Shown: piece after piece, positions 38,956 through 50,822 of the stretch
Numbering within the stretch: the first letter of the stretch is position 1
Layout: each line of letters starts with the position of its first letter
From: Runella rosea
Lineage (GTDB): Bacteria; Bacteroidota; Bacteroidia; Cytophagales; Spirosomataceae
Length of the DNA stretch: 64,000 nt
Reading direction: 5' to 3'
NCBI RefSeq assembly: GCF_003325355.1
Contig: NZ_CP030850.1
Span: forward strand, 3,038,001 to 3,102,000
Position numbers and translations under genes: made by a program
Notes under the pieces: generated by a model
Database searches by the model: none
What the model saw: only the letters and a program-made list of their open reading frames with translations
What the model was told of the DNA's origin: nothing

Positions 38956-39837
38956 TTAAAAATCCCCGTAGTTCACCTGCAAACACGGCAAGCCCAGCTC
39001 CAAGCGCCACAAATCCACGACTTGGTTACGGTCATCGAGCACGAACTGCACGAAATATTGCCCTTTTACATGCGCTTCGTAAAGCTCTTTTTTGACAACC
39101 GCATCTTTGCGCATATCTCCCGTCGCACGCATGTAGAGCGCGTGATAAAGGATATTGTTGTATTTCAACCAATTGAGCGTCGGCGTTCGTGCTTTCTCTT
39201 CTCGACCCGACATCAAAATAATTTTGACGCCCAAAGTGTAATAATTTTTGATGATTTCAGCAATGGGTTGGTTGAGATCATCCAATTCGCACGACATAGC
39301 ATCGTAAGGGCTTCGGTTTCTCAAAATAGCCAACGTACCATCCAAATCACACAGAACAGCAGGCGGTAAACTTGTATCTTGGGGCTGATAATGCGGCCCG
39401 CGCTCATCGCCCAACACGTGGGTTTTGTACATGCGCAAAATCACGTCGCGGCCTACTTTTTTCTCCCGCACTTCATCCCGCGCCAAGCTTTCTTCCAGCG
39501 AAGTATTCATTTCTCGAATCTCAATTTTCACCTGCTCACCAGTGTCTTTGGTATATTTTTCCACCACCTGACGAATCCGCTCCACGGGACGATCCGATAA
39601 ATTAGTATCATCAATAATGACGTGTTTTCCATCACGTAGGGCTTCTACCAACATCAAATCACGGACTCGCTCTACAAATTTCTCATTGTGTTTGGAATGC
39701 TCGCTGTTGTCGAGCATGGCACGGAGTTCGTCTTTGTTAAGCCGCTTGTACATGCCTTTATTTTCATCCAACAGTTGTCGGGCGAGGGTGGATTTTCCAC
39801 TCGCAGGCAAGCCGCGTAGTAAGATTACTTTTTTCAT
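38956..39837 (-). CDS. T4-like polynucleotide kinase-phosphatase (RNA end healing)
   Basis: 293 aa. The N-terminal P-loop kinase has GLPASGKST (residues 9-17), IDDTNL (Asp in the 5'-OH site) and the lid segment ARDEVREKKVGRDVI. The C-terminal phosphatase of the HAD fold has CDLDGTLA (Asp164 and Asp166), MSGREEKAR and FVLDDRNQVVDLW. This is the domain order of T4 Pnkp, which phosphorylates 5'-OH ends and removes 3'-phosphate or cyclic phosphate. The ligase gene ends 3 bp upstream, so both are surely co-transcribed. It would prepare broken RNA (for example nicked tRNA) for sealing. Confidence 0.92.
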   Translation of the reverse strand: MKKVILLRGLPASGKSTLARQLLDENKGMYKRLNKDELRAMLDNSEHSKHNEKFVERVRDLMLVEALRDGKHVIIDDTNLSDRPVERIRQVVEKYTKDTGEQVKIEIREMNTSLEESLARDEVREKKVGRDVILRMYKTHVLGDERGPHYQPQDTSLPPAVLCDLDGTLAILRNRSPYDAMSCELDDLNQPIAEIIKNYYTLGVKIILMSGREEKARTPTLNWLKYNNILYHALYMRATGDMRKDAVVKKELYEAHVKGQYFVQFVLDDRNQVVDLWRLELGLPCLQVNYGDF

Positions 39838-39840
39838 TTT

Positions 39841-40875
39841 TTACACATCATAATTGGTAAACGGCTTCTGAAAAGTTGGCCGAATTTGTTTCCAGATAAT
39901 TTCGTCATAGGGTTTTTGGTCAAACATTTTGAACAAAACCGCCGGATAACGACAGGTCTGAAAATACAGTGCCGTGTCTTTACGCGTTTCTAAAATTCGA
40001 AAATCAGCTTGGCAAATCGCTTCAATTTCTGCAAATTTCGCTAAAAGCTGCGCGTGGATTTCCTTAACCCAATCATAAAATTCATCGGGTACTTTTTCCA
40101 GAATCGGCGCTAGATCCTGCCCCGCTTTCAGATACTCCCAAATACTTACGTTAGACACCCCCGTCACAATTCGGTGGATGCGTTGGTACTCTTCAAATTT
40201 AACTTTCAAACGATAGCCGCTCCGAAACCGTACCACAAACCCTTCTTTGTTGTCCTCTTCCAAGGTTTTCAGCAAATGTAAATCATTCAGGCCGTCGTAG
40301 CGTTGGATGACGTCAAAGCCTGCATTTTCGGTCTGCCAATGCGGCGTCTCTACAATATCAATTCCCGTTTGGGTATCAATAACGGCCAGAAGTACTAATT
40401 TTCGCTCGGTTCCGTAGTCTACTACGATACGGTTTTCGGGATAAATGATTTCAAATAGATACGTTTGAGCCCGATCTAAATGCGGAATCACGTGGGCGTA
40501 TTGCGTATGTAACATCTTAGTAGCTGCCTGCGCCTGCTCGCTTGTAAACGACCCACGAGAAGCGATAAACGGCTTATCCTCATACCAATACAAAATCCCT
40601 AACGAACCATCTAATTTTTCAAAGACTTCAAAAGACTCGTTGGGAATGGCTTGATTTTCCATTTCGCCCAAGTTGAAAAACTTCCCAAAAGGACGTGCTA
40701 TAATGTTGTATTCCTCATCTAAAATCAAGCCCCGACACGCCAGTGTCAGTTCGTTCCAGACACGGTCGTATTGGGTTTTTGGGGTATAGTTGTAGATGTA
40801 TAACGGTGCCGTTGGGTGCTTCTGCACCTTAATATAGTCCTCGGCAATGAGCTGTTGTAAGGCAGAGATATTCAT
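39841..40875 (-). CDS. T4 RNA ligase 1-like RNA ligase
   Basis: 344 aa from the Met at 40875 (a longer frame begins at 40977 but is poorly conserved). Nucleotidyltransferase motif I is EKLDGSLG with Lys87 as the adenylated residue; LACRGLILDEEYNIIARPFGKFFNLGE (residues 45-71) is typical of T4 Rnl1. Motif III (YLFEIIYPENRIVV), IV (EGFVVRF) and V (LKVKFEEY) are all present. The C-terminal part (WEYLKAGQDLAPILEKVPDEFYDW) matches the Rnl1 extra domain in character. It seals 5'-PO4 to 3'-OH ends produced by the kinase-phosphatase gene downstream. Confidence 0.92.
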   Translation of the reverse strand: MNISALQQLIAEDYIKVQKHPTAPLYIYNYTPKTQYDRVWNELTLACRGLILDEEYNIIARPFGKFFNLGEMENQAIPNESFEVFEKLDGSLGILYWYEDKPFIASRGSFTSEQAQAATKMLHTQYAHVIPHLDRAQTYLFEIIYPENRIVVDYGTERKLVLLAVIDTQTGIDIVETPHWQTENAGFDVIQRYDGLNDLHLLKTLEEDNKEGFVVRFRSGYRLKVKFEEYQRIHRIVTGVSNVSIWEYLKAGQDLAPILEKVPDEFYDWVKEIHAQLLAKFAEIEAICQADFRILETRKDTALYFQTCRYPAVLFKMFDQKPYDEIIWKQIRPTFQKPFTNYDV

Positions 40876-40960
40876 CGCTGTGTTGGTTAACGATGTAAAT
40901 AAGAATGTAATTGAGGAAGATTTGGGGATCAAGGCTAAAATTTGTGGAGCAACTAACAAC

Positions 40961-40992
40961 AAAAAAGCACTTAACATTTCTGCTAAGTGCTT
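40961..40992 (-). terminator. Terminator left of the integrated element
   Basis: Stem AAGCACTTA/TAAGTGCTT (40965-40973 and 40984-40992), followed on the minus strand by a T-run. Before integration this would have been the terminator of the tRNA-Asn gene. The rest of the 305-bp gap 40876-41180 contains the left attachment site and no gene. Confidence 0.75.
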
Positions 40993-41002
40993 GATTTTTA
41001 GG

Positions 41003-41016
41003 GCTCCCGAGGCTGG
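41003..41016. other. Left attachment site of the tRNA-Asn element
   Basis: GCTCCCGAGGCTGG is an exact 14-bp copy of the tRNA-Asn 3' end found at 50748-50761. It lies 10 bp after the ancestral terminator and 164 bp before the first gene of the element. Confidence 0.75.
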
Positions 41017-41180: not shown

Positions 41181-41648
41181 CTATTCGCTGAAGTCTTTCT
41201 TTAATTTTTCAATATTTTGCTTTATCGATGTTTCTAAAATGCCTTCAGGGTCTATAATAGACTTTAAAATCAAGTTTAGTTCCTCGGGTGTTTTGCCGCT
41301 TTTTTCTATATATGAATTCCCGGTATTCAAAAAAAGCTTCATCAAAGCTTCCATTTGGATAGTCATTTTCCTTAGCTTCCCTAATTCTTCATCTTTTTGG
41401 ATAAGCTTCTCATTTAGAACATTTACATCTTTTTCGGGATACTGTACATCTTCTGGAAAAAGTAGCTCCCTTAAAGTGACATCAAAAGCTTTTGCAATCT
41501 CTTCTAATTGTTCAATAGAAAGCTTTTTCCCCTTCTTTACCAGTCTGTTGTAGTTGGCCGCGTCAATATCTAACTTTTTAGACAAATCAAGTTTAGACAA
41601 AGATTTTTTTGTGCGTAAGTCTTCAATTCTTTCAGCTAAATCAATCAT
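41181..41648 (-). CDS. XRE-family repressor of the integrated element
   Basis: 155 aa. Residues 5-62 are a Cro/CI-type helix-turn-helix: IEDLRTKKSLSKLDLSKKLDIDAANYNRLVKKG then LEEIAKAFDVTLRELL. The remaining C-terminal part is a likely coiled coil (LNEKLIQKDEELGKLRKM). It is divergent from the small gene at 41915 across 266 bp containing repeated TTTGATTA boxes and a -7 box for each direction, the arrangement of a phage lysogeny switch. It probably represses excision and replication genes; the target is inferred. Confidence 0.88.
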   Translation of the reverse strand: MIDLAERIEDLRTKKSLSKLDLSKKLDIDAANYNRLVKKGKKLSIEQLEEIAKAFDVTLRELLFPEDVQYPEKDVNVLNEKLIQKDEELGKLRKMTIQMEALMKLFLNTGNSYIEKSGKTPEELNLILKSIIDPEGILETSIKQNIEKLKKDFSE

Positions 41649-42176: not shown

Positions 42177-43457
42177 ATGTTTAATCCGAAACACAAATTT
42201 ACTATGTTAAAAGTACAAAAAATCTCTCAAAAGGACTCAAGGGAGAAACGTATTCAAAAGTTTTCTATACGCCCATTTGTTAGAGGCAGTCAACTTTATT
42301 TAAGATTGACTTATAACAAAAAGAACCTTTCATTTAGTACGGGCTTAAGTTGTCCTTCTTCAAAATTAGATGCAAAAACATTTTCTATTAAAGGCAACGA
42401 ACAAACAACTATTTATCTTCAGCAGCTACGTACAGATATAGAAAGGGTAGTTGCTGACTTCAGATTGACAAAACGCCCTATTGATTTACGCGAACTGAAA
42501 AAAATAGCTGTATTAAAAGAGACAATCCATTCGACTACACCTACCCTTAACGCGTGTTTAGACATTTTTTTCAAGAATGATTTTGAATCTCTATCAGGTA
42601 TAGATTACAAGGCAAAAACAGTTGAGAAGAAGCGCTATTTAGTTGAACGTATAAAACGATATGTTTTAGAGCACCATAAAAACCCATATCTGAAATTAAC
42701 AGAACTAAAACCTGTCGATGGTCAAAATCTAGTTAATTTTTGTAAAAAGAACTTTGGACATGGTCATAATCACGCGGTACTTCATGCTGAATTTCTTAAA
42801 CGGACTCTAAATTATGCCATTGCTAACGAGTGGATAGATAAAAACCCATTGGCATTCTTTCGACCTAAGCGCGAACGAAAGGAGGTAGAAGCCCTCAGTG
42901 AAGGCGAAATTTTAAATCTTCAGCAAACGGTTTTTCATGGTCATCAATACAACTATGTGAAAGACGTTTTTCTATTCTGCTGTTATACTGGGCTATCGTA
43001 CATTGATGTAAGTCGATTAGATAATACATTCTTTGTCACTCTCAAAAACGGTGATAAGATGATAAAAATTGGACGTGGAAAAAATGAAAACCCTTGCATT
43101 ATCCCTTTAGTACCGCAAGCACTGGAAATACTTGATAAATACGCTGAAAATGAAGATTGCTTGAGTCGAGAGCGTTTATTGCCTGTCTATGCGAATCAGG
43201 TTATGAATAGAATTTTAAAAGAAATTCAGGCCATCTGTCATATCAAGCTGAAACTTACAACCCACGTTGCCCGTAAAACTTGTGCTTCATACTTCATTGC
43301 TAACGGTGTACCTCTTACCAGTGTAGCAACAATGTTAGGTCATAAAAAAACCAGTACAACAGAGTTATACTACACCCAACGTACTGAAGAGGCCGTAATT
43401 CGTCATATACAAGAGTTTAAAGAGCGTAAAGGTTTAGACAATTCAAAAGCTGTCTAA
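42177..43457 (+). CDS. Tyrosine recombinase/integrase (IntDOT-like)
   Basis: 426 aa (a second start Met at 42204 is possible). An N-terminal arm-binding part (FVRGSQLYLRLTYNKKN) and SAM-like core (HAVLHAEFLKRTLNYAIANEWIDKNPL) precede the catalytic domain. CCYTGLSYIDVSRLD has Ser where classical integrases have the first catalytic Arg, as in Bacteroides CTnDOT integrase. THVARKTCAS supplies the H-x-x-R, MLGHKKTSTTELYYT the His and the nucleophilic Tyr. It would catalyse integration into the tRNA-Asn 3' end. Confidence 0.93.
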   Translation: MFNPKHKFTMLKVQKISQKDSREKRIQKFSIRPFVRGSQLYLRLTYNKKNLSFSTGLSCPSSKLDAKTFSIKGNEQTTIYLQQLRTDIERVVADFRLTKRPIDLRELKKIAVLKETIHSTTPTLNACLDIFFKNDFESLSGIDYKAKTVEKKRYLVERIKRYVLEHHKNPYLKLTELKPVDGQNLVNFCKKNFGHGHNHAVLHAEFLKRTLNYAIANEWIDKNPLAFFRPKRERKEVEALSEGEILNLQQTVFHGHQYNYVKDVFLFCCYTGLSYIDVSRLDNTFFVTLKNGDKMIKIGRGKNENPCIIPLVPQALEILDKYAENEDCLSRERLLPVYANQVMNRILKEIQAICHIKLKLTTHVARKTCASYFIANGVPLTSVATMLGHKKTSTTELYYTQRTEEAVIRHIQEFKERKGLDNSKAV

Positions 43458-43528: not shown

Positions 43529-44716
43529 ATGAGTTCTGTAGAAAAAACAAAAACAGCAAATACTCCTATTATTCGGCGTATCCAAGACTTTATTTTCGCT
43601 GAATATGACTATCGACTCAACATTATTACAAACCACCTAGAACGAAGTCCTAAAAGTGCTTCTGAATGGGAATTTGTAAATGTCAGTGATATTGAAGTTG
43701 AGCTTTACGAATATGGGTTAAAGGGCTTTAAAGACCCTTTAAAAGCTCTATTAGGTTCAAAAGTAATTCCAAAATTTGACCCTTTTACGGAATATTTTAC
43801 CAGTCTTCCAAATTGGGATAAATCACAACCAGATTATATAGAAAAGCTGTCAGGATTTGTAAGAACTGATGATGATTGGTGGTGGAAGCAAATGTTTAAG
43901 AAATGGGTTGTTAGAGTCGTAGGTCAAGCAACCGGCAAAATCCCTTTTAATAAGCAGTGCCTTACATTAGTGGGAAAACAAAATGATGGTAAAACAACTT
44001 TTTTAGACTTTCTAATTCCAAATGCTTTAAAAAAATATGCAAAGAAAGGCTTTGATTTTGGCAGTAAAGACGGCAAAATATCATTAGTGCAGAACTTTCT
44101 CATAAACCTTGACGAATTAGCATCTTTTGATAAAAAAGAGCTAAACAATGAGTTTAAAACGGTTCTTTCTGAAGGTATGGTTAAATACAGACCATTATTT
44201 CAAAATACAGAAGTTCCATTTGCCCGGCGAGCGAGTTTTGCAGCAAGTACAAACCAATTCGAGTTTTTGACAGATGAAACTGGCAACGTCCGTTGGCTTC
44301 CTTTTGTGGTTAGAGAAATCCTTCATGATTCTGGTGGATTAAATGGCTATGAAGCTAATAATGACATAGACTTATTTTGGTCTCAAGCCTATGCCCTACT
44401 AAACGATACTTCTTTTGAATGTAACATGACTAAAGATGATATCTCACATCAAGAAACATTGAATCGTAGATTTTTACGTACTACGACCGAAATGGAAGTT
44501 TTGGAGAAATATTATAAACCTTCTGACAAAGGAGTATTTGAAGCCGTATTCTTAACAGCTTCAGATATTGAAAATGAACTAAAAGCAAAAGTCAACCTAA
44601 GACTTCATCGCAATCAAATAGGGCGAGCACTTCAGATAATGGGATATAACCAAGAAAGTAACTACAACTCCCGCAAAGGATATACGGTAAAGGGCTACTT
44701 TGTTACTAGGCTCTAA
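43529..44716 (+). CDS. VapE/VirE-family ATPase (replication of the element)
   Basis: 395 aa, P-loop protein of the virulence-associated E family common in satellites and genomic islands. Walker A GKQNDGKTT is at residues 149-157; the segment FLINLDELASFDKKELNNEFK carries the Walker B type acid, and EVPFARRASFAASTNQFEFLTDETGNVRWLPF is the typical VapE sensor region. It is expected to act as a helicase-like motor with a primase during replication of the element. The iteron-like region and primase gene immediately downstream fit this. Confidence 0.88.
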   Translation: MSSVEKTKTANTPIIRRIQDFIFAEYDYRLNIITNHLERSPKSASEWEFVNVSDIEVELYEYGLKGFKDPLKALLGSKVIPKFDPFTEYFTSLPNWDKSQPDYIEKLSGFVRTDDDWWWKQMFKKWVVRVVGQATGKIPFNKQCLTLVGKQNDGKTTFLDFLIPNALKKYAKKGFDFGSKDGKISLVQNFLINLDELASFDKKELNNEFKTVLSEGMVKYRPLFQNTEVPFARRASFAASTNQFEFLTDETGNVRWLPFVVREILHDSGGLNGYEANNDIDLFWSQAYALLNDTSFECNMTKDDISHQETLNRRFLRTTTEMEVLEKYYKPSDKGVFEAVFLTASDIENELKAKVNLRLHRNQIGRALQIMGYNQESNYNSRKGYTVKGYFVTRL

Positions 44717-44930: not shown

Positions 44931-45044
44931 ATTTTGCCGCTAAAAGAAAAAGAAAAATCGTAGAGAGTTAAATAGTGTATTCTCCTAATAATGGAAATAA
45001 ATGTCCAAGCTTTTAATCATTTTTTTATCATAAACTTTTCAACC

Positions 45045-45944
45045 ATGCAAAACCGTATTTTTTTTGACAAAGAAACCATTGAACAGGCTAAAACTGTATC
45101 AATCCCTGTTTTTCTGCAAAGTATCGGCATAGAGCCATTAAAGACCGTTGGTAATGAATGGCTCTATCTTTCGCCTTTACGTAATGAGAAAACCGCTTCT
45201 TTTTATGTAAACACTTCCAAAAACTGTTTTACGGATTTTGGCGGCTCTGAACAAATGAAAGGGGATTCAATCCGATTAGTACAGATAGTTAATAACTGCC
45301 ACTTCAAAGAAGCCGTAAAAGTACTTTTAGGATTAGCCCCTCAAACCATCTCTTTTTCTTTCAGCGGTCATAGTACCTCAACTAAAAACGGTCTTACTGT
45401 AGCCGCTGTAAAACCCCTTACTCATACTGCTTTAATAAAGTACGTACAAAGCAGGGGTATAGCTCTAAATTTGGCAAAAGCATATTTGAATGAAGTACAC
45501 TATTTGAGCAACGACAAACCATACTTTGCCGTTGGATTTCGGAATGACAATGACGGCTTTGAACTCCGTAACAGTTTAGGGTTTAAGGGCAAAACAGCAA
45601 ACGGTGTATCAACTTTTGATTTAGGTACTGATTCAATAGCAGTTTTTGAAGGTTTCTTTGACTTTCTTTCTGCCTTACAACACTACGACAAACAAGCCCC
45701 CTCTATCAGTACTATTGTGCTCAATACTACTAATAATCTAAAAGCAGTTTTACCGATACTCGCCCAATACCGCCAAATCAATACTTTTTTAGATAATGAC
45801 AAAGCAGGACTACAAGCTTTAAAAACGCTGATAAATAGCTGTTTAAATGTCAAAAACTATGCGAGCTTACTGTACCCTAACCACAAAGATTTTAATGCTT
45901 ATCTATGTGAAAACAGTAACGTAAACCGCCTAAAAACGGCTTAA
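45045..45944 (+). CDS. Toprim-domain primase-like protein of the element
   Basis: 299 aa from the Met at 45045; an upstream in-frame ATG (44991) adds 18 unrelated residues. The N-terminal part mimics a CHC2 zinc finger (WLYLSPLRNEKTASFYVNTSKNCFTDFGG...GDSIRLVQ) but lacks most zinc ligands. The toprim domain has IAVFEGFFDFLSAL (Glu) and INTFLDNDKAGLQAL (Asp-x-Asp). This type is frequent in Bacteroidota mobilisable elements. It probably primes DNA synthesis with the VapE ATPase. Confidence 0.87.
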   Translation: MQNRIFFDKETIEQAKTVSIPVFLQSIGIEPLKTVGNEWLYLSPLRNEKTASFYVNTSKNCFTDFGGSEQMKGDSIRLVQIVNNCHFKEAVKVLLGLAPQTISFSFSGHSTSTKNGLTVAAVKPLTHTALIKYVQSRGIALNLAKAYLNEVHYLSNDKPYFAVGFRNDNDGFELRNSLGFKGKTANGVSTFDLGTDSIAVFEGFFDFLSALQHYDKQAPSISTIVLNTTNNLKAVLPILAQYRQINTFLDNDKAGLQALKTLINSCLNVKNYASLLYPNHKDFNAYLCENSNVNRLKTA

Positions 45945-45997: not shown

Positions 45998-46390
45998 ATG
46001 ACCACTAAAAAAAAGTGTGCCGTATGTGGCAAACGATTTGAAGCAAAAAGAAGTGATACGTTGTATTGTTCGGCTCAATGCAAACAACACGCCCACTATA
46101 AACGAAGTGCGACGAAAGAAACCGACACTCCCCAAGAAGTTTTTTATATGGATGAGTACAACGAAGTAGAAAAAGTACAGAAAGAAATGGAGTTAATTAC
46201 CTACTGTTTTTTACGTCGTAATCTTAACGCAGATGCCACCGTTGAGGAAATTTTAAGATACATTCAAAGTGTTTGGGATTATGGTCAATTATGGGAAAAT
46301 TTTTGGGAAACAAAACCCTTTATTGAATACAGAAACAGATTCTTGAACGGAGAAGTCAAAATATTTTCTAAACGCCCTCAACCCCAATAA
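45998..46390 (+). CDS. Small zinc-ribbon protein
   Basis: 130 aa. Residues 4-30 form a treble-clef zinc ribbon (CAVCGKRF then YCSAQCKQH), like that of small Bacteroidota mobile-element proteins. The rest is acidic/helical with no recognised domain. The stop codon lies within the long palindrome at 46382. Function unknown; it closes the core gene set of the element. Confidence 0.75.
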   Translation: MTTKKKCAVCGKRFEAKRSDTLYCSAQCKQHAHYKRSATKETDTPQEVFYMDEYNEVEKVQKEMELITYCFLRRNLNADATVEEILRYIQSVWDYGQLWENFWETKPFIEYRNRFLNGEVKIFSKRPQPQ

Positions 46391-46442: not shown

Positions 46443-48299
46443 CTAATACTTAAGCCTTTCCTTAAAATATTTTTTAACCTCTGGATTTGTGAAGAATACA
46501 TAACATCCTTTCATTCCTCGTGTCATTAAGGTTCTGTATGTATTTTTTATGATTTTATCTAATGTTACCACTGCGCCGGGGTCTTTGGCCAAAAGGCTTT
46601 TATAGCCTCTTACGGACATATCAGATTTAGCTCGCTTGTCAGGTTTACCAATCAAATCTCCATTTTCAATGGCTAAATCATCACCGACAATTACACCAAT
46701 ATAATCTACTTCTAGCCCTTGACATGTATGTATACAACCAATTTCGTTTACAGATTCAGGTGCTATAATCCATAAGCTGCCATCAGTAGTAAGATTCCAA
46801 CGCATTTTAAAGCTATATTCAGGTATTACTACATCATAAAGTGCTCCATTCTTCTTACTAGCCCATTCCCAACAGTAGCCCGCTACCATTCGGGCTTTAT
46901 TATTTAGTTTATTTTTCGCTAGAATTTCTTTCTTTAATTCTGTAGGATCATCAAAGATTCTAAAATCATAGTTGAGGTCTTTAATGGAATCGTTTGCTGT
47001 CTCTCTTATTTGTAAGACATCATCCAACCAAGCTAAATATCCATCAGAGCCACCACATCTAAATTGAGAGCTTAACGTCATATAATGGGTGTTTGCCCCC
47101 AGTTTATCAGCCCACATTTGTATCTCTTTCTTCTCTCCAATATCATTTAAATGTATTTTTTGGTCTTCGTCTATAAAAAATACTGAGAATTTAGAAGATG
47201 CTATTATCTCTTTTATTTGGTTCTCACCTAAGTTACTATACAAACCTGACTTTTCATTTAGTCGGTGGGCTTCATCCACAATCAATACATCATAAATATT
47301 GTTTTTTGATTCTGTAAAAGCTCCTGAACCTTTGAATAAATTTGATATATCCGTTTTTCTGAATGACTCTGTTAATTTATTTTCATATACTGCTCTAGGT
47401 GCTGCATTTTTAGAAACATACATTGAAACCATTTGAAGTGACGTTAGCTTTACCAATAGATTAATGGCTACTACTGACTTACCTGTCCCCGGCCCACCTT
47501 CAACAATCAGAACATTTTTATTCTTAGAATTAGATTGTCTTGCTAAAGCTAATGCATTCTCATATACAAGTTTCTGGTCATCTATCATTATAAATTCCTG
47601 ATTCCCCTTTAGCAGTGATACCATACTATCGGACAAGCTTTTGGAAGGTCTAATTTTCCCGCTATCAATACGGAACATGATTTTTGACTTATCACCGTAT
47701 TTGACATGAGTTTTAATAAACTCCTGAAGCTTCGCTGCATCATTTTTTAGGAAGACTGGTGCTTTATCAATGTATTCCTGATAAAATGCATTTTTGATGA
47801 TATTATCATTGTGGTAATTATGAAGGTATGCACAGGGTTTTAACAAAATGCCCTCACTTTGCACTGTTTCGTTAAAATTATTTAATAGGGATGCATAGGA
47901 CCATGCTTGATATGATGGGTGATTGGTTTCTGTAGACCCATGTTGAAATCGAGTAATAACTACCCCATCTTTTGCTGTCAATTCTGCTTTCTCCCATTGT
48001 TTAAGCTCAACTAAAATTGCGCTATCTCTTCCTGAACTATCTTGACCTGTTAGAATAAAATCAATCCTCTTAGAAGTCATTGGAATCTGATACTCAATTA
48101 CCACTCCGCAATCGTTGGGTATTTCGGAATCGTTTAAAACACGGTCCATATATGATAGTGATTCTCTCCATGACCTTATTTCACTTGAAGATGTTGACCG
48201 ATTAAGACGCGACTCAAAAAAATTAAGAATGATGTTATCGATATTGTTTGAAAAGATATCTTTACCGAATTCAGCTTTAGAAGCTTGATAGACAATCAT
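46443..48299 (-). CDS. PD-(D/E)XK nuclease-DUF2075 helicase fusion
   Basis: 618 aa. Residues 65-105 carry a PD-(D/E)XK nuclease core: Asp80 in KRIDFIL and Glu98-x-Lys100 in ILVELKQW. The DUF2075 superfamily 1 helicase follows: Walker A EGGPGTGKSVVA (268-275), Walker B VLIVDEAHRLNEK (342-345), SSQFRCGG motif, and CIHTCQGLEVDYIGV and RTLMTRGMKGCYVF late in the protein. DUF2075 helicases are related to the helicase part of Schlafen proteins. It is last in a three-gene operon, 15 bp after the MazG gene. Nucleic-acid degradation or unwinding in anti-phage defence is inferred. Confidence 0.92.
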   Translation of the reverse strand: MIVYQASKAEFGKDIFSNNIDNIILNFFESRLNRSTSSSEIRSWRESLSYMDRVLNDSEIPNDCGVVIEYQIPMTSKRIDFILTGQDSSGRDSAILVELKQWEKAELTAKDGVVITRFQHGSTETNHPSYQAWSYASLLNNFNETVQSEGILLKPCAYLHNYHNDNIIKNAFYQEYIDKAPVFLKNDAAKLQEFIKTHVKYGDKSKIMFRIDSGKIRPSKSLSDSMVSLLKGNQEFIMIDDQKLVYENALALARQSNSKNKNVLIVEGGPGTGKSVVAINLLVKLTSLQMVSMYVSKNAAPRAVYENKLTESFRKTDISNLFKGSGAFTESKNNIYDVLIVDEAHRLNEKSGLYSNLGENQIKEIIASSKFSVFFIDEDQKIHLNDIGEKKEIQMWADKLGANTHYMTLSSQFRCGGSDGYLAWLDDVLQIRETANDSIKDLNYDFRIFDDPTELKKEILAKNKLNNKARMVAGYCWEWASKKNGALYDVVIPEYSFKMRWNLTTDGSLWIIAPESVNEIGCIHTCQGLEVDYIGVIVGDDLAIENGDLIGKPDKRAKSDMSVRGYKSLLAKDPGAVVTLDKIIKNTYRTLMTRGMKGCYVFFTNPEVKKYFKERLKY

Positions 48300-48314
48300 A
48301 TTAAGGTTTAGGTT

Positions 48315-48644
48315 TTATAATTCAGTGTATTTTTTGGCAGTACCTTTAGCTTTTTCTACAGGGTATTTTTCAGCATTTTTTTGAATTTTATCTAATACCA
48401 AATCCCTGACATTAAGATTATATTTATCGGCAAGCAGTATGCAAAAAGCTAAAATGTCAGCAAGTTCTTCTTTGACTTTTTCTGTTTTGGCCTCTTTAAA
48501 GTCTTTCCACAAAAACACCTCTAACAACTCGTTCGCCTCTATCGAAATAGCAATAGCCAAATCTTTGGGATTATGAAACTGTTCCCAATCCCTTTCATTT
48601 CTGAAATCAATAAGTTTTTGTCTTAATTCCTCAAAATCTGACAT
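48315..48644 (-). CDS. MazG-like nucleotide pyrophosphohydrolase
   Basis: 109 aa, a single MazG/dCTP-pyrophosphatase domain. Metal-binding acids: Glu36 and Glu39 in IEANELLEVF, Glu60 and Asp63 in EELADILAF. The C-terminus KIQKNAEKYPVEKAKGTAKKY is characteristic of the short DCTPP1-like branch. It hydrolyses a (d)NTP to the monophosphate and pyrophosphate. It starts 3 bp after the TPR/peptidase gene and precedes the helicase-nuclease gene, so the three are one operon. Nucleotide depletion or sensing on infection would fit a defence role; that is inferred. Confidence 0.9.
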   Translation of the reverse strand: MSDFEELRQKLIDFRNERDWEQFHNPKDLAIAISIEANELLEVFLWKDFKEAKTEKVKEELADILAFCILLADKYNLNVRDLVLDKIQKNAEKYPVEKAKGTAKKYTEL

Positions 48645-48647
48645 TGG

Positions 48648-50627
48648 TTATCTTTTTACCAAAGTTTTAGCTAATTCATATTCCTTATCAAAGGGTAACT
48701 GAAGCATTTTATGCATTTCTGGGTTGAAAAGTTTCCACGTAACATAATAAAAGGCTAATAAGTGATAGCCGCTAAACTCTACATTTGGGATAGCGGCAAT
48801 TTTGTAGCCTTTTTTATCAGGGGAAATACCTTGAGTACCCAACATAGCTATTTCAACCGCTACTTTTTGCAATTCTGATATTGAGGCATTTTGATATTTT
48901 TCTAAAGCACTCACCATGTACATAACTACCGCCATATTTATATCTTGGTCTTCATGGTTCTTAAGAAATATTTCCAACTCTTTTTCTCTGAGTGGGTTTT
49001 GAGTATTTATATCAAATGGGTCTTTTTCAATTTCATTTAATAATTCTAAAGGGTCTAACCGTTGATTTCGGTATTTACTTTCATCCACCAATTCAAAGTA
49101 CCCTGAGACTTTCAAGTCATTTGCCCAGTTTTGTACTAATTCATATTCTTCTGCGGGTTCTTTATCCTTACTATAATCCTGATATTCAGCTATAAACTTT
49201 TCAGCCTGTTTCAATTCAAAAGGGCTACCTTTCATCTGTGTCACAAAATCTACTCCATAAAGGTTTTTAAAGTGAATAGCGTTAACCAGATTGTAAATCT
49301 TTGACGTTGATAATACTCCTTTAGGACTTAAGTCAACGACTTTGGGATTAGTAACAGCCTCTTTTCCTTCCTGATTCATTATGTAAAGAGATATGAACTG
49401 GAATGGCCTTAACTCTTTGTAGTTCTGAAAAAGAAAATCTTCAATAAACAAATCTATGGGTGTATTGAAAATTTGCCGGTTAATTCCACTAAAAAGCTCT
49501 TCAGCAAACCGCGCTAGTGATTCTTCAGGTATACCCTCCTTTGAAAGTCGTAGTAAATCTTTTTCAAGGGAACGGATAAAACCTTGCTTGTGATGTTGTG
49601 TGCTTGTAAAAAGGGAGTTATTGCCAGTTTTACGGGCTTGAGTAATAAAATCAAGGTGAACCAGTTCATGCATTATTAAATGCTGATAGCCAGGTCTATT
49701 ACTTTTAAACTTGATTATATGCTCTTGCCGATTATAATTTTCGGCTACTTCTAGTTTTGCAACAGTTGGAATAGAATCATCCTGTATCTGAAGCACTTTT
49801 TTTCCTGACTGATTTTCAAGCCTTTGAATATAGCTTTTAACTATATCATTGATTTTTTCATTTTCAATTAATCTTCGGCTGACGTTGGTTACAATTTCTA
49901 AAGCATACTTGTACATAGTGTTTTTACTATCCACAAGCTTTAACGTATCACAACCTTTCTCAAAAGCGGTTACGAGGTCGTTTTCTTTTTCTGCTAATAC
50001 GGCCAAAGCATAATGTGTATTTGGATAAGCAGTATTTATACTTATGGCTTTATCAAAATACTTTTTTGCTTCTTTGTACTTTTGGTTCTCCATTAGAACA
50101 GCCCCGATATTATTTAAGGCAATATTATTGCTCGGGTCTACTAAAACAGCTTGGTCATAATATTTCATTGCTGTTTCAACATCGTTTTGATGCCTTGCAA
50201 AAATATTACCCATCATTATCAAAGCCCACTTGTTTTTTGGGTCCCAACATAAAGCATCAATCAATTGATTAATTGCCTCGGTCTGATTTCCTTCATCAGA
50301 ATGGATTTGGCCTAAAATCCTGTAATACTCTGAATTTGTAGGGTTTTTCTTAATAAGTTCTTTTAATAATGGCTTAGCTTCAGAGAATTTACCTTTTTCA
50401 CAAAGGGTGATTATTTTTCTATAGTCAGTATCATTCTCTGAAATTTTAGGAATATTTATCTCAATGACTACTTGATTTCCTTTGATACTGATTGCAGGCT
50501 TATAACCTCCATACTCATAGTAGTCACTAAGCAAAACTTTAAGTTTTTCTTCGTCCACTTCTCCGTTTACTGTGGCACTTGGAAAAAGCTCCAAGAAAAA
50601 ATCGTCTATATTATGAATGATAATCAT
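48648..50627 (-). CDS. TPR-repeat protein with HExxH metallopeptidase motif
   Basis: 659 aa from the Met at 50627; the upstream Met at 50651 lies inside the -7 box and is unlikely. After an N-terminal segment, about five TPR units (residues 67-227; for example LGQIHSDEGNQTEAINQLIDAL and IGAVLMENQKYKEAKKYFDKA) are followed by a zinc-metallopeptidase-like domain with IMHELVHLDF, residues 320-324 HELVH. A candidate third ligand is the Glu in PIDLFIEDFLF. The C-terminal ~200 residues are unrecognised. First gene of the cargo operon; TPRs probably bind a partner or trigger and the peptidase acts in cis or trans. No close family was recognised. Confidence 0.85.
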   Translation of the reverse strand: MIIIHNIDDFFLELFPSATVNGEVDEEKLKVLLSDYYEYGGYKPAISIKGNQVVIEINIPKISENDTDYRKIITLCEKGKFSEAKPLLKELIKKNPTNSEYYRILGQIHSDEGNQTEAINQLIDALCWDPKNKWALIMMGNIFARHQNDVETAMKYYDQAVLVDPSNNIALNNIGAVLMENQKYKEAKKYFDKAISINTAYPNTHYALAVLAEKENDLVTAFEKGCDTLKLVDSKNTMYKYALEIVTNVSRRLIENEKINDIVKSYIQRLENQSGKKVLQIQDDSIPTVAKLEVAENYNRQEHIIKFKSNRPGYQHLIMHELVHLDFITQARKTGNNSLFTSTQHHKQGFIRSLEKDLLRLSKEGIPEESLARFAEELFSGINRQIFNTPIDLFIEDFLFQNYKELRPFQFISLYIMNQEGKEAVTNPKVVDLSPKGVLSTSKIYNLVNAIHFKNLYGVDFVTQMKGSPFELKQAEKFIAEYQDYSKDKEPAEEYELVQNWANDLKVSGYFELVDESKYRNQRLDPLELLNEIEKDPFDINTQNPLREKELEIFLKNHEDQDINMAVVMYMVSALEKYQNASISELQKVAVEIAMLGTQGISPDKKGYKIAAIPNVEFSGYHLLAFYYVTWKLFNPEMHKMLQLPFDKEYELAKTLVKR

Positions 50628-50648
50628 TAAAATCTTAAGGTTAATATC

Positions 50649-50656
50649 CAAAAATA
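50649..50656 (-). promoter_or_regulatory. -7 promoter box of the cargo operon
   Basis: Minus-strand TATTTTTG matches TAnnTTTG, 22 bp before the Met at 50627. It overlaps the upstream in-frame Met (50651), which therefore is not the start. Confidence 0.5.
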
Positions 50657-50747: not shown

Positions 50748-50761
50748 GCTCCCGAGGCTGG
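50748..50761. other. Right attachment site within tRNA-Asn
   Basis: GCTCCCGAGGCTGG covers the last nucleotides of the tRNA acceptor stem and part of the T stem. It repeats exactly at 41003-41016. Confidence 0.75.
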
Positions 50762-50822
50762 GCTCGAACCAGCGACCCTCTGATTAACAGTCAGATGCTC
50801 TAACCGACTGAGCTACTCGGGA
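50749..50822 (-). tRNA. tRNA-Asn (GTT)
   Basis: 74 nt. Acceptor stem TCCCGAG pairs with CTCGGGA, discriminator G. D arm AGCTCAGTCGGTTAGAGC, anticodon stem TCTGA/TCAGA around loop CTGTTAA (anticodon GTT), and T arm CTGGTTCGAGCCCAG are all in place. CCA is not encoded (GCAAC follows), as is common in Bacteroidota. Its 3' end is the insertion site of the element at 41003-50761. Confidence 0.97.

Follow-up and report, generated by a model that had tools for sequence, protein, structure and literature searches.

The stretch of DNA considered here (the window) comprises 64,000 nucleotides from the 7.16 Mb genome of Runella rosea, a member of the Bacteroidota (assembly GCF_003325355.1, contig NZ_CP030850.1, positions 3,038,001 to 3,102,000), and contains an operon of three genes, all on the minus strand, within an integrated element. 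The first gene (48648..50627) encodes a TPR-HExxH peptidase, the second (48315..48644) a pyrophosphohydrolase of the MazG-like type with kinship to dCTP pyrophosphatase 1, and the third (46443..48299) a PD-(D/E)XK nuclease fused to a Schlafen group 3 helicase (DUF2075). The gaps of 3 bp (peptidase/MazG) and 15 bp (MazG/nuclease-helicase) are those given in an initial annotation made from the sequence alone, and the arrangement is not a product of chance, since the gene order is kept by relatives in other genera. The -7 box which that annotation placed in front of the operon can be found (TATTTTTG, 50649-50656, minus strand), but taken alone it is no evidence, because TANNTTTG is about as frequent in the window as chance predicts (74 occurrences against 67.5 expected). 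An alternative TTG start of the peptidase at 50651 is probably wrong and the ATG at 50627 is preferred, since most aligned homologues start at the latter position. The trio, initially read as one candidate defence system, looks like a junction of two modules, namely a two-gene unit of MazG and the nuclease-helicase, and a TPR-HExxH protein which appears to be exchangeable and not a fixed part of one three-gene system.

Catalytic residues are conserved in all three proteins. The peptidase consists of TPR repeats at residues ~59-257 and a peptidase domain at 258-659, as judged from TPR domain matches and structure models; the HELVH motif ascribed to the TPR protein lies at 49656-49670, all 60 aligned peptidases keep the HExxH residues together with E396 (49440-49442), and zinc binding is predicted. 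The N-terminus seemed at first to resemble type III Mod proteins, but a profile comparison (E 6.4) did not bear this out. The fusion of a nuclease to a Schlafen-related DUF2075 helicase, likewise claimed initially, is confirmed by a match to SLFN-g3_helicase (PF09848, which we take to be the former DUF2075; E 1.8e-102), and plasmid records label their homologues DUF2075; all 29 aligned rows have the PD-(D/E)XK residues D80, E98 and K100, the Walker A pair G273-K274 and D342-E343. The assignment of the middle gene to nucleoside triphosphate pyrophosphohydrolases holds (MazG-like PF12643, E 7.8e-20) and can be refined, its closest solved relative being dCTP pyrophosphatase 1 (DCTPP1, also RS21-C6; E 4.7e-19 over residues 4-109). 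Both proteins have an ERDWEQFH motif and a Trp-Lys motif, and W20, H24, E39, E42, W46, E60 and D63, comprising the acidic metal motifs and the aromatic pocket, are shared by all 52 aligned rows. We take these residues to have the roles of their DCTPP1-type counterparts. The window protein, which differs in being encoded in a restriction operon, is more aptly described as a pyrophosphatase of the dCTP type, with dCTP or a 5-modified form of it as its predicted substrate.

The association between MazG and the nuclease-helicase is the tighter part of the trio. Homologues of the nuclease, sought at E <= 1e-50, occur in 8 of 395 genomes of a phylum-level sample and in 4 of 149 relatives, the R. rosea genome being counted in both. 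MazG is found near nine of the ten other nuclease loci, immediately upstream in eight and ~1 kb upstream in L159; the tenth, L160, has none within the 1.5-kb flanks of the nuclease. Yet only L159 (identical with L140) among these nine has the peptidase, and no TPR homologue was detected in the wider stretches of the other eight. The view of the trio as a single dedicated three-part machine is thus not supported, the MazG-nuclease pair being without a TPR gene in 8 of 10 other nuclease loci. The pair also reaches beyond the phylum, into Bacillota and a haloarchaeon: in five nuclease regions from outside Bacteroidota, MazG lies directly upstream in Halalkalicoccus and Priestia, whereas in Halomonas it follows the nuclease at a distance of ~700 bp. 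The gene that precedes MazG in Priestia has an MrcB_N and a weak HNH domain, no more than a hint of modified-DNA specificity. A faecal phage record has MazG divergent beside the nuclease, and a scan of viral contigs with the nuclease yielded no relatives. In one locus (L172, 5023-12000) type III-like Res/Mod genes lie directly upstream of MazG-DUF2075, again without a TPR gene.

The distribution of the peptidase is of a different kind. It is patchy, being present in 4 of 149 relatives (the R. rosea genome counted, two of the others belonging to the same genus), in 23 of the 395 genomes sampled across the phylum (own genome counted) and in 4 of 397 genomes of one family. One search for the peptidase family gave 1491 hits, 120 of which were listed. 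Peptide-pattern scans with the peptidase alone gave no relatives in viral or genome contigs; an alignment-based scan of viral contigs gave none either, and the same method applied to genomes did find relatives, of which the best 80 of 127 were kept. With further loci, 106 were examined, of which 105 have the HExxH anchor and 98 are non-redundant at 95%, and to 64 of these 98 a label could be assigned by hand for the cassette directly downstream, helicase types being checked separately. The cassettes comprise 20 GIY-YIG-helicases, 18 PD-(D/E)XK-helicases, 8 pairs of McrB-like AAA and DUF2357-PDDEXK_7 proteins, 4 type I restriction-modification systems, 4 SNF2-type helicases (a methyltransferase is seen in two, the other two ending at contig ends), 3 type III or related restriction-modification systems, 3 BREX, 2 T5orf172, 1 DUF6079 and 1 ResIII. 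In 57 of the 64 loci the gene following the peptidase starts within 75 nt, often overlapping, and this order is constant across many genera. The co-occurrence across unrelated genomes for which the initial annotation had asked is therefore conserved far outside close relatives, together with the restriction context, but since the peptidase fronts at least seven other cassette kinds it is unlikely to be a dedicated sensor of this nuclease.

That the cassettes are exchanged, and not merely diversified along with the peptidase, is suggested by a quickly built peptidase tree with 64 tips (weak in 17 of its 61 inner branches, and with two long rows), on which the cassette label changes 30 times, the minimum possible being 9. 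Shuffled labels gave a mean of 37.8 changes and in none of 200 shuffles as few as 30, and when both helicase types are pooled 21 changes remain; these counts point to some inheritance combined with much exchange. Short neighbouring branches front different systems, McrBC-like in L019, L022 and L042, GIY-YIG in L023 and type I in L021. Elsewhere the context varies further: in L085 the peptidase is preceded by DISARM-like drmA and drmB instead, and L041 has a convergent BREX operon, including brxL and pglZ, on the downstream side.

Several observations concern the composition of individual loci. A GIY-YIG domain replaces PD-(D/E)XK in the helicase variant of L016 (11301-13472) and 19 similar loci, and a LexA-like S24 domain stands at the C-terminus of 14 of the 20 GIY-YIG helicases and of one PD-(D/E)XK form (L059). 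Five loci have two PD-(D/E)XK-helicase genes in succession, the second being divergent from the first: L051, L052, L082, L002 and L020, the helicase of L020 being of the PD-(D/E)XK type. An endonuclease/exonuclease/phosphatase-family gene lies between peptidase and MazG in L031 (10890-11600; by Pfam) and L060 (10973-11680; by eye). In three Chlorobiaceae loci (L068, L069, L074) the peptidase has no classified cassette directly downstream; L068 and L069 have a similar 161-aa gene 43 nt upstream, with no Pfam match in L069, where a convergent umuC-like polymerase gene also adjoins the peptidase.

Within this collection the presence of MazG is related to the absence of a methyltransferase. MazG occurs in 46 of 48 cassettes without a methyltransferase, that is, with none flagged downstream by exemplar or motif, as against 1 of 11 with one (Fisher p 1.1e-8); the count excludes L044, L065 and L067 (truncated), as well as L029 and L046. 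In a kinship-aware test no independent pair ran counter to this trend: on average 0 pairs had MazG and methyltransferase changing in the same direction, 5.3 in opposite directions, and 1.7 were undecided. The family also occurs on plasmids, where all 19 MazG-anchored records were inspected: a DUF2075 gene lies within ~1 kb in six, a TPR-peptidase gene or a piece of one precedes MazG in two (both Hymenobacter), two are unannotated and showed only MazG by tblastn, and the remainder have other or unrelated neighbours, so that the MazG family is not restricted to defence. On a Lactiplantibacillus plasmid (L187, 683-6078) a NUDIX gene, a PLD-helicase (DUF3427), MazG and a DUF2075-type helicase stand in a row, two nucleotide-cleaning-type enzymes thus adjoining one restriction-like locus.

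The operon resides in a mobile element of ~9.76 kb bounded by a 14 bp direct repeat. The right attachment-site core (50748..50761, plus strand) is the 3' end of a tRNA-Asn gene (50748-50822, minus strand), and the left core (41003..41016, plus strand) is a direct repeat of that end; in steps of 1 kb the G+C content is 30-36% within the element and 40-48% outside. The remaining genes encode a phage-type helix-turn-helix (HTH) repressor (41181..41648, minus strand; HTH_3 E 3.6e-8, phrog_8) and, on the plus strand, a tyrosine integrase (42177..43457; Phage_integrase E 2e-13, phrog_1), a VapE-type replication helicase (43529..44716; PF05272 E 3e-28, phrog_1313), a DnaG-like primase with zinc ribbon and Toprim domain matches (44991..45944) and a small HNH/zinc-finger-like protein (45998..46390; phrog_1271 E 6.5e-8). 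No structural phage genes were found among the element genes scanned, and the trio, said initially to be the only cargo, is indeed the only evident one. Just outside the left attachment site (38956-40977, minus strand) lie genes for a PNKP-type polynucleotide kinase-phosphatase and a T4 Rnl1-type RNA ligase, two enzymes that together make up an RNA-repair set such as is used to restore cleaved tRNAs. The same trio occurs in L004 (PP438423.1, 'Microcystis phage Mwe-JY31', 22 kb), with 52% identity in the peptidase and 74% in the nuclease, and its neighbours there are a serine-recombinase-like gene and one for a replication initiator; five proteins of this record were scanned and gave one weak terminase-like match and no other structural match, and the record may stem from a mobile element of Bacteroidota and not from a cyanophage.

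As the initial annotation had supposed, the trio corresponds to no named system in PADLOC 2.0.0. The peptidase has no full-length match there (the best, PDC-M71B, E 7.6e-4, covers residues 73-143 in the TPR part), and MazG has none at E <= 1. Partial likenesses nevertheless exist. With McrBC and other type IV systems the window unit shares the combination of a nuclease and a nucleoside triphosphate-driven motor, with no methyltransferase in the trio, and the same peptidase, mostly with MazG, fronts the McrB-like/DUF2357-PDDEXK_7 pair; it differs in that its motor is a Schlafen-type helicase and not an AAA protein like McrB, in the addition of MazG, and in that its modified-DNA specificity is putative. 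The helicase core matches Nhi (E 5.4e-12, residues 253-414) and AbiO (E 1.9e-11, 233-414), but the match is limited to this core (43 bits for Nhi) and does not extend over the model length, and the window adds MazG and the peptidase. The candidate PDC-S41 is similarly a partial match to the nuclease-helicase (E 3.2e-18, best over residues 109-311), without a named mechanism and with no peptidase or MazG model. Lit is a phage-activated HExxH zinc protease whose probable target in infected cells is a host protein; the window peptidase differs from it by its TPR fusion and restriction partners, with no PADLOC Lit match at E <= 1. In TOTE/TALON (TPR, OB, TBP, effector), according to the available part of PMC12458937, a TPR protein forms a common core with various effectors; here neither an OB nor a TBP domain was seen among the scanned part of the neighbours, and a peptidase domain takes their place. 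A parallel in organisation is provided by the three families of shared immune-operon controllers, CapH-CapP, CapW/BrxR and CapK-CapS, described in the available part of PMC13373217, in which one exchangeable module stands beside many immune operons and CapP is a protease. The window peptidase shares the HExxH motif with CapH-CapP, but has a TPR domain, restriction-type classified partners and, as in 84 of 92 peptidase loci, no HTH gene directly upstream. In the open-access literature we found no paper on the TPR-HExxH family or on the MazG-DUF2075 pair, subscription papers being mostly uncovered and absence unproven. Shared accessory modules of immune operons are hence known; what appears to be new here is a peptidase family that could not be matched to a named one and is tied to restriction.

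We propose that the operon combines a type IV-like nuclease, equipped with a nucleotide-pool enzyme, and a restriction-coupled sensor protease whose target lies outside the cassette, a reading to which we assign a probability of roughly 40%. In the first module, a methyltransferase-less restriction unit, the helicase-nuclease would attack foreign, probably modified, DNA, and MazG would hydrolyse dCTP or 5-modified dCTP, keeping nuclease-triggering marks out of host DNA and so acting in the protective place of a methyltransferase, or else starving the phage of such marks. In the second, an exchangeable metallopeptidase common to many restriction cassettes, the TPR domain would sense infection in the form of a phage protein or a restriction product, and the activated peptidase would cut its target, in all likelihood as a back-up for cases in which restriction has been blocked. 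We place this target outside the cassette chiefly because the peptidase stands before many unrelated cassettes, which makes a cassette-specific substrate unlikely; and a guard function of this kind is our first choice over a Cap-type controller or a control of restriction itself.

A number of points weigh against this reading. The rule linking MazG to methyltransferase-less cassettes is not absolute, since L018 and L072 are without MazG, L084 (type III) has it, and of 296 genomes in which DUF2357 proteins were sought the two positive ones, both Chlorobium-group McrBC-like loci, have neither MazG nor TPR in the stretches taken; the median p of the kinship-aware test is only 0.0625. MazG is absent beside the nuclease in two of the five regions from outside Bacteroidota (Methanosphaera, Streptomyces). 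Among the 98 peptidase loci 34 have no classifiable cassette directly downstream, these being contig ends, cases of MazG without a complete nuclease in view, or lone copies, with 13 from Chlorobium or its genus code, and in one homologue (L141, 8893-10476, minus strand) the HExxH motif itself has been lost. Finally, the fold of the peptidase domain is poorly anchored: it has no match to PDB sequences at E <= 10, hence none to CapP, the domain alone gave none in Foldseek at E <= 0.001, searches with the full-length protein are dominated by TPR proteins, and VIA-align returned weak matches only, including IrrE, PprI and CapP, in a list where unrelated proteins score equal to peptidases.

These weak matches nonetheless speak for the strongest competing explanation, a possible one with the odds against it, in which the TPR-HExxH protein acts as a CapP/ImmA/PprI-like controller that, activated by damage or phage, cuts a DNA-binding repressor and switches on the downstream cassette. 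The peptidase does head its operon, for a same-strand gene of at least 75 aa ending within 50 nt upstream exists in only 6 of the 64 classified loci; five of these genes encode HTH proteins and the sixth is a fragment of the peptidase. Of 92 loci that could be evaluated, 8 have a gene of the XRE-type HTH class immediately before the peptidase (gaps of 5-68 nt, by eye; L022 Pfam-confirmed), in L031 one lies at a distance of 342 nt, and the umuC-like neighbour of the lone copy in L069 also speaks for this explanation. On the other hand, in the remaining 84 loci, among them that of the window, the 150 nt upstream contain no such gene, and to our knowledge CapP has no TPR domain. The Cap controllers, too, are common to several immune operons, but in the available part of PMC13373217 these include CBASS and Bub operons, whereas the classified partners here, with part of the neighbours scanned, are of restriction type.

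It is unlikely that MazG is, instead of a pool-cleaning or self-protection enzyme, an abortive effector draining dCTP upon infection. Defence enzymes that deplete deoxynucleotides exist and the DCTPP1-type active-site residues are conserved, but MazG tracks methyltransferase-less cassettes, not the peptidase, and pairs with the nuclease in the absence of the latter, so that a link to the nuclease substrate fits better. Decidedly unlikely is that the peptidase clips the restriction enzymes, restraining self-restriction as ClpXP does, or destroys phage-made anti-restriction proteins: DNA restriction is the common denominator of the classified partners, and ClpXP-dependent restriction alleviation is described in the available part of PMC12255303, yet the cassettes have no evident common protein and are frequently swapped, which argues against a dedicated cassette substrate, and the anti-restriction version has no direct evidence. 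A mere crowding of genes in islands, with no functional link, is very unlikely, for although defence genes cluster and lone peptidase copies exist, a next gene within 75 nt in 57 of the 64 classified loci and in constant order is hardly to be expected of it.

Returning to a type IV-like unit joined to a restriction-coupled sensor protease, its most general form would make the TPR-metallopeptidase a general, phage-triggered restriction plug-in of Bacteroidota and Chlorobi, with a cassette-independent target, backing type I, III and IV, BREX and SNF2-type systems, and would have a DCTPP1-like enzyme replace the methyltransferase in self-protection by excluding modified dCTP from host DNA; taken as a whole this is somewhat unlikely. 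Restriction is usually treated as self-contained. If one peptidase family moves among restriction classes, systems without kinship would have a sensor or a back-up step in common, and the peptidase would be the single gene family through which this shared step becomes testable. The trend in MazG, present where a methyltransferase is lacking and absent where there is one, likewise offers a proposal for how modification-dependent nucleases may spare their own host.
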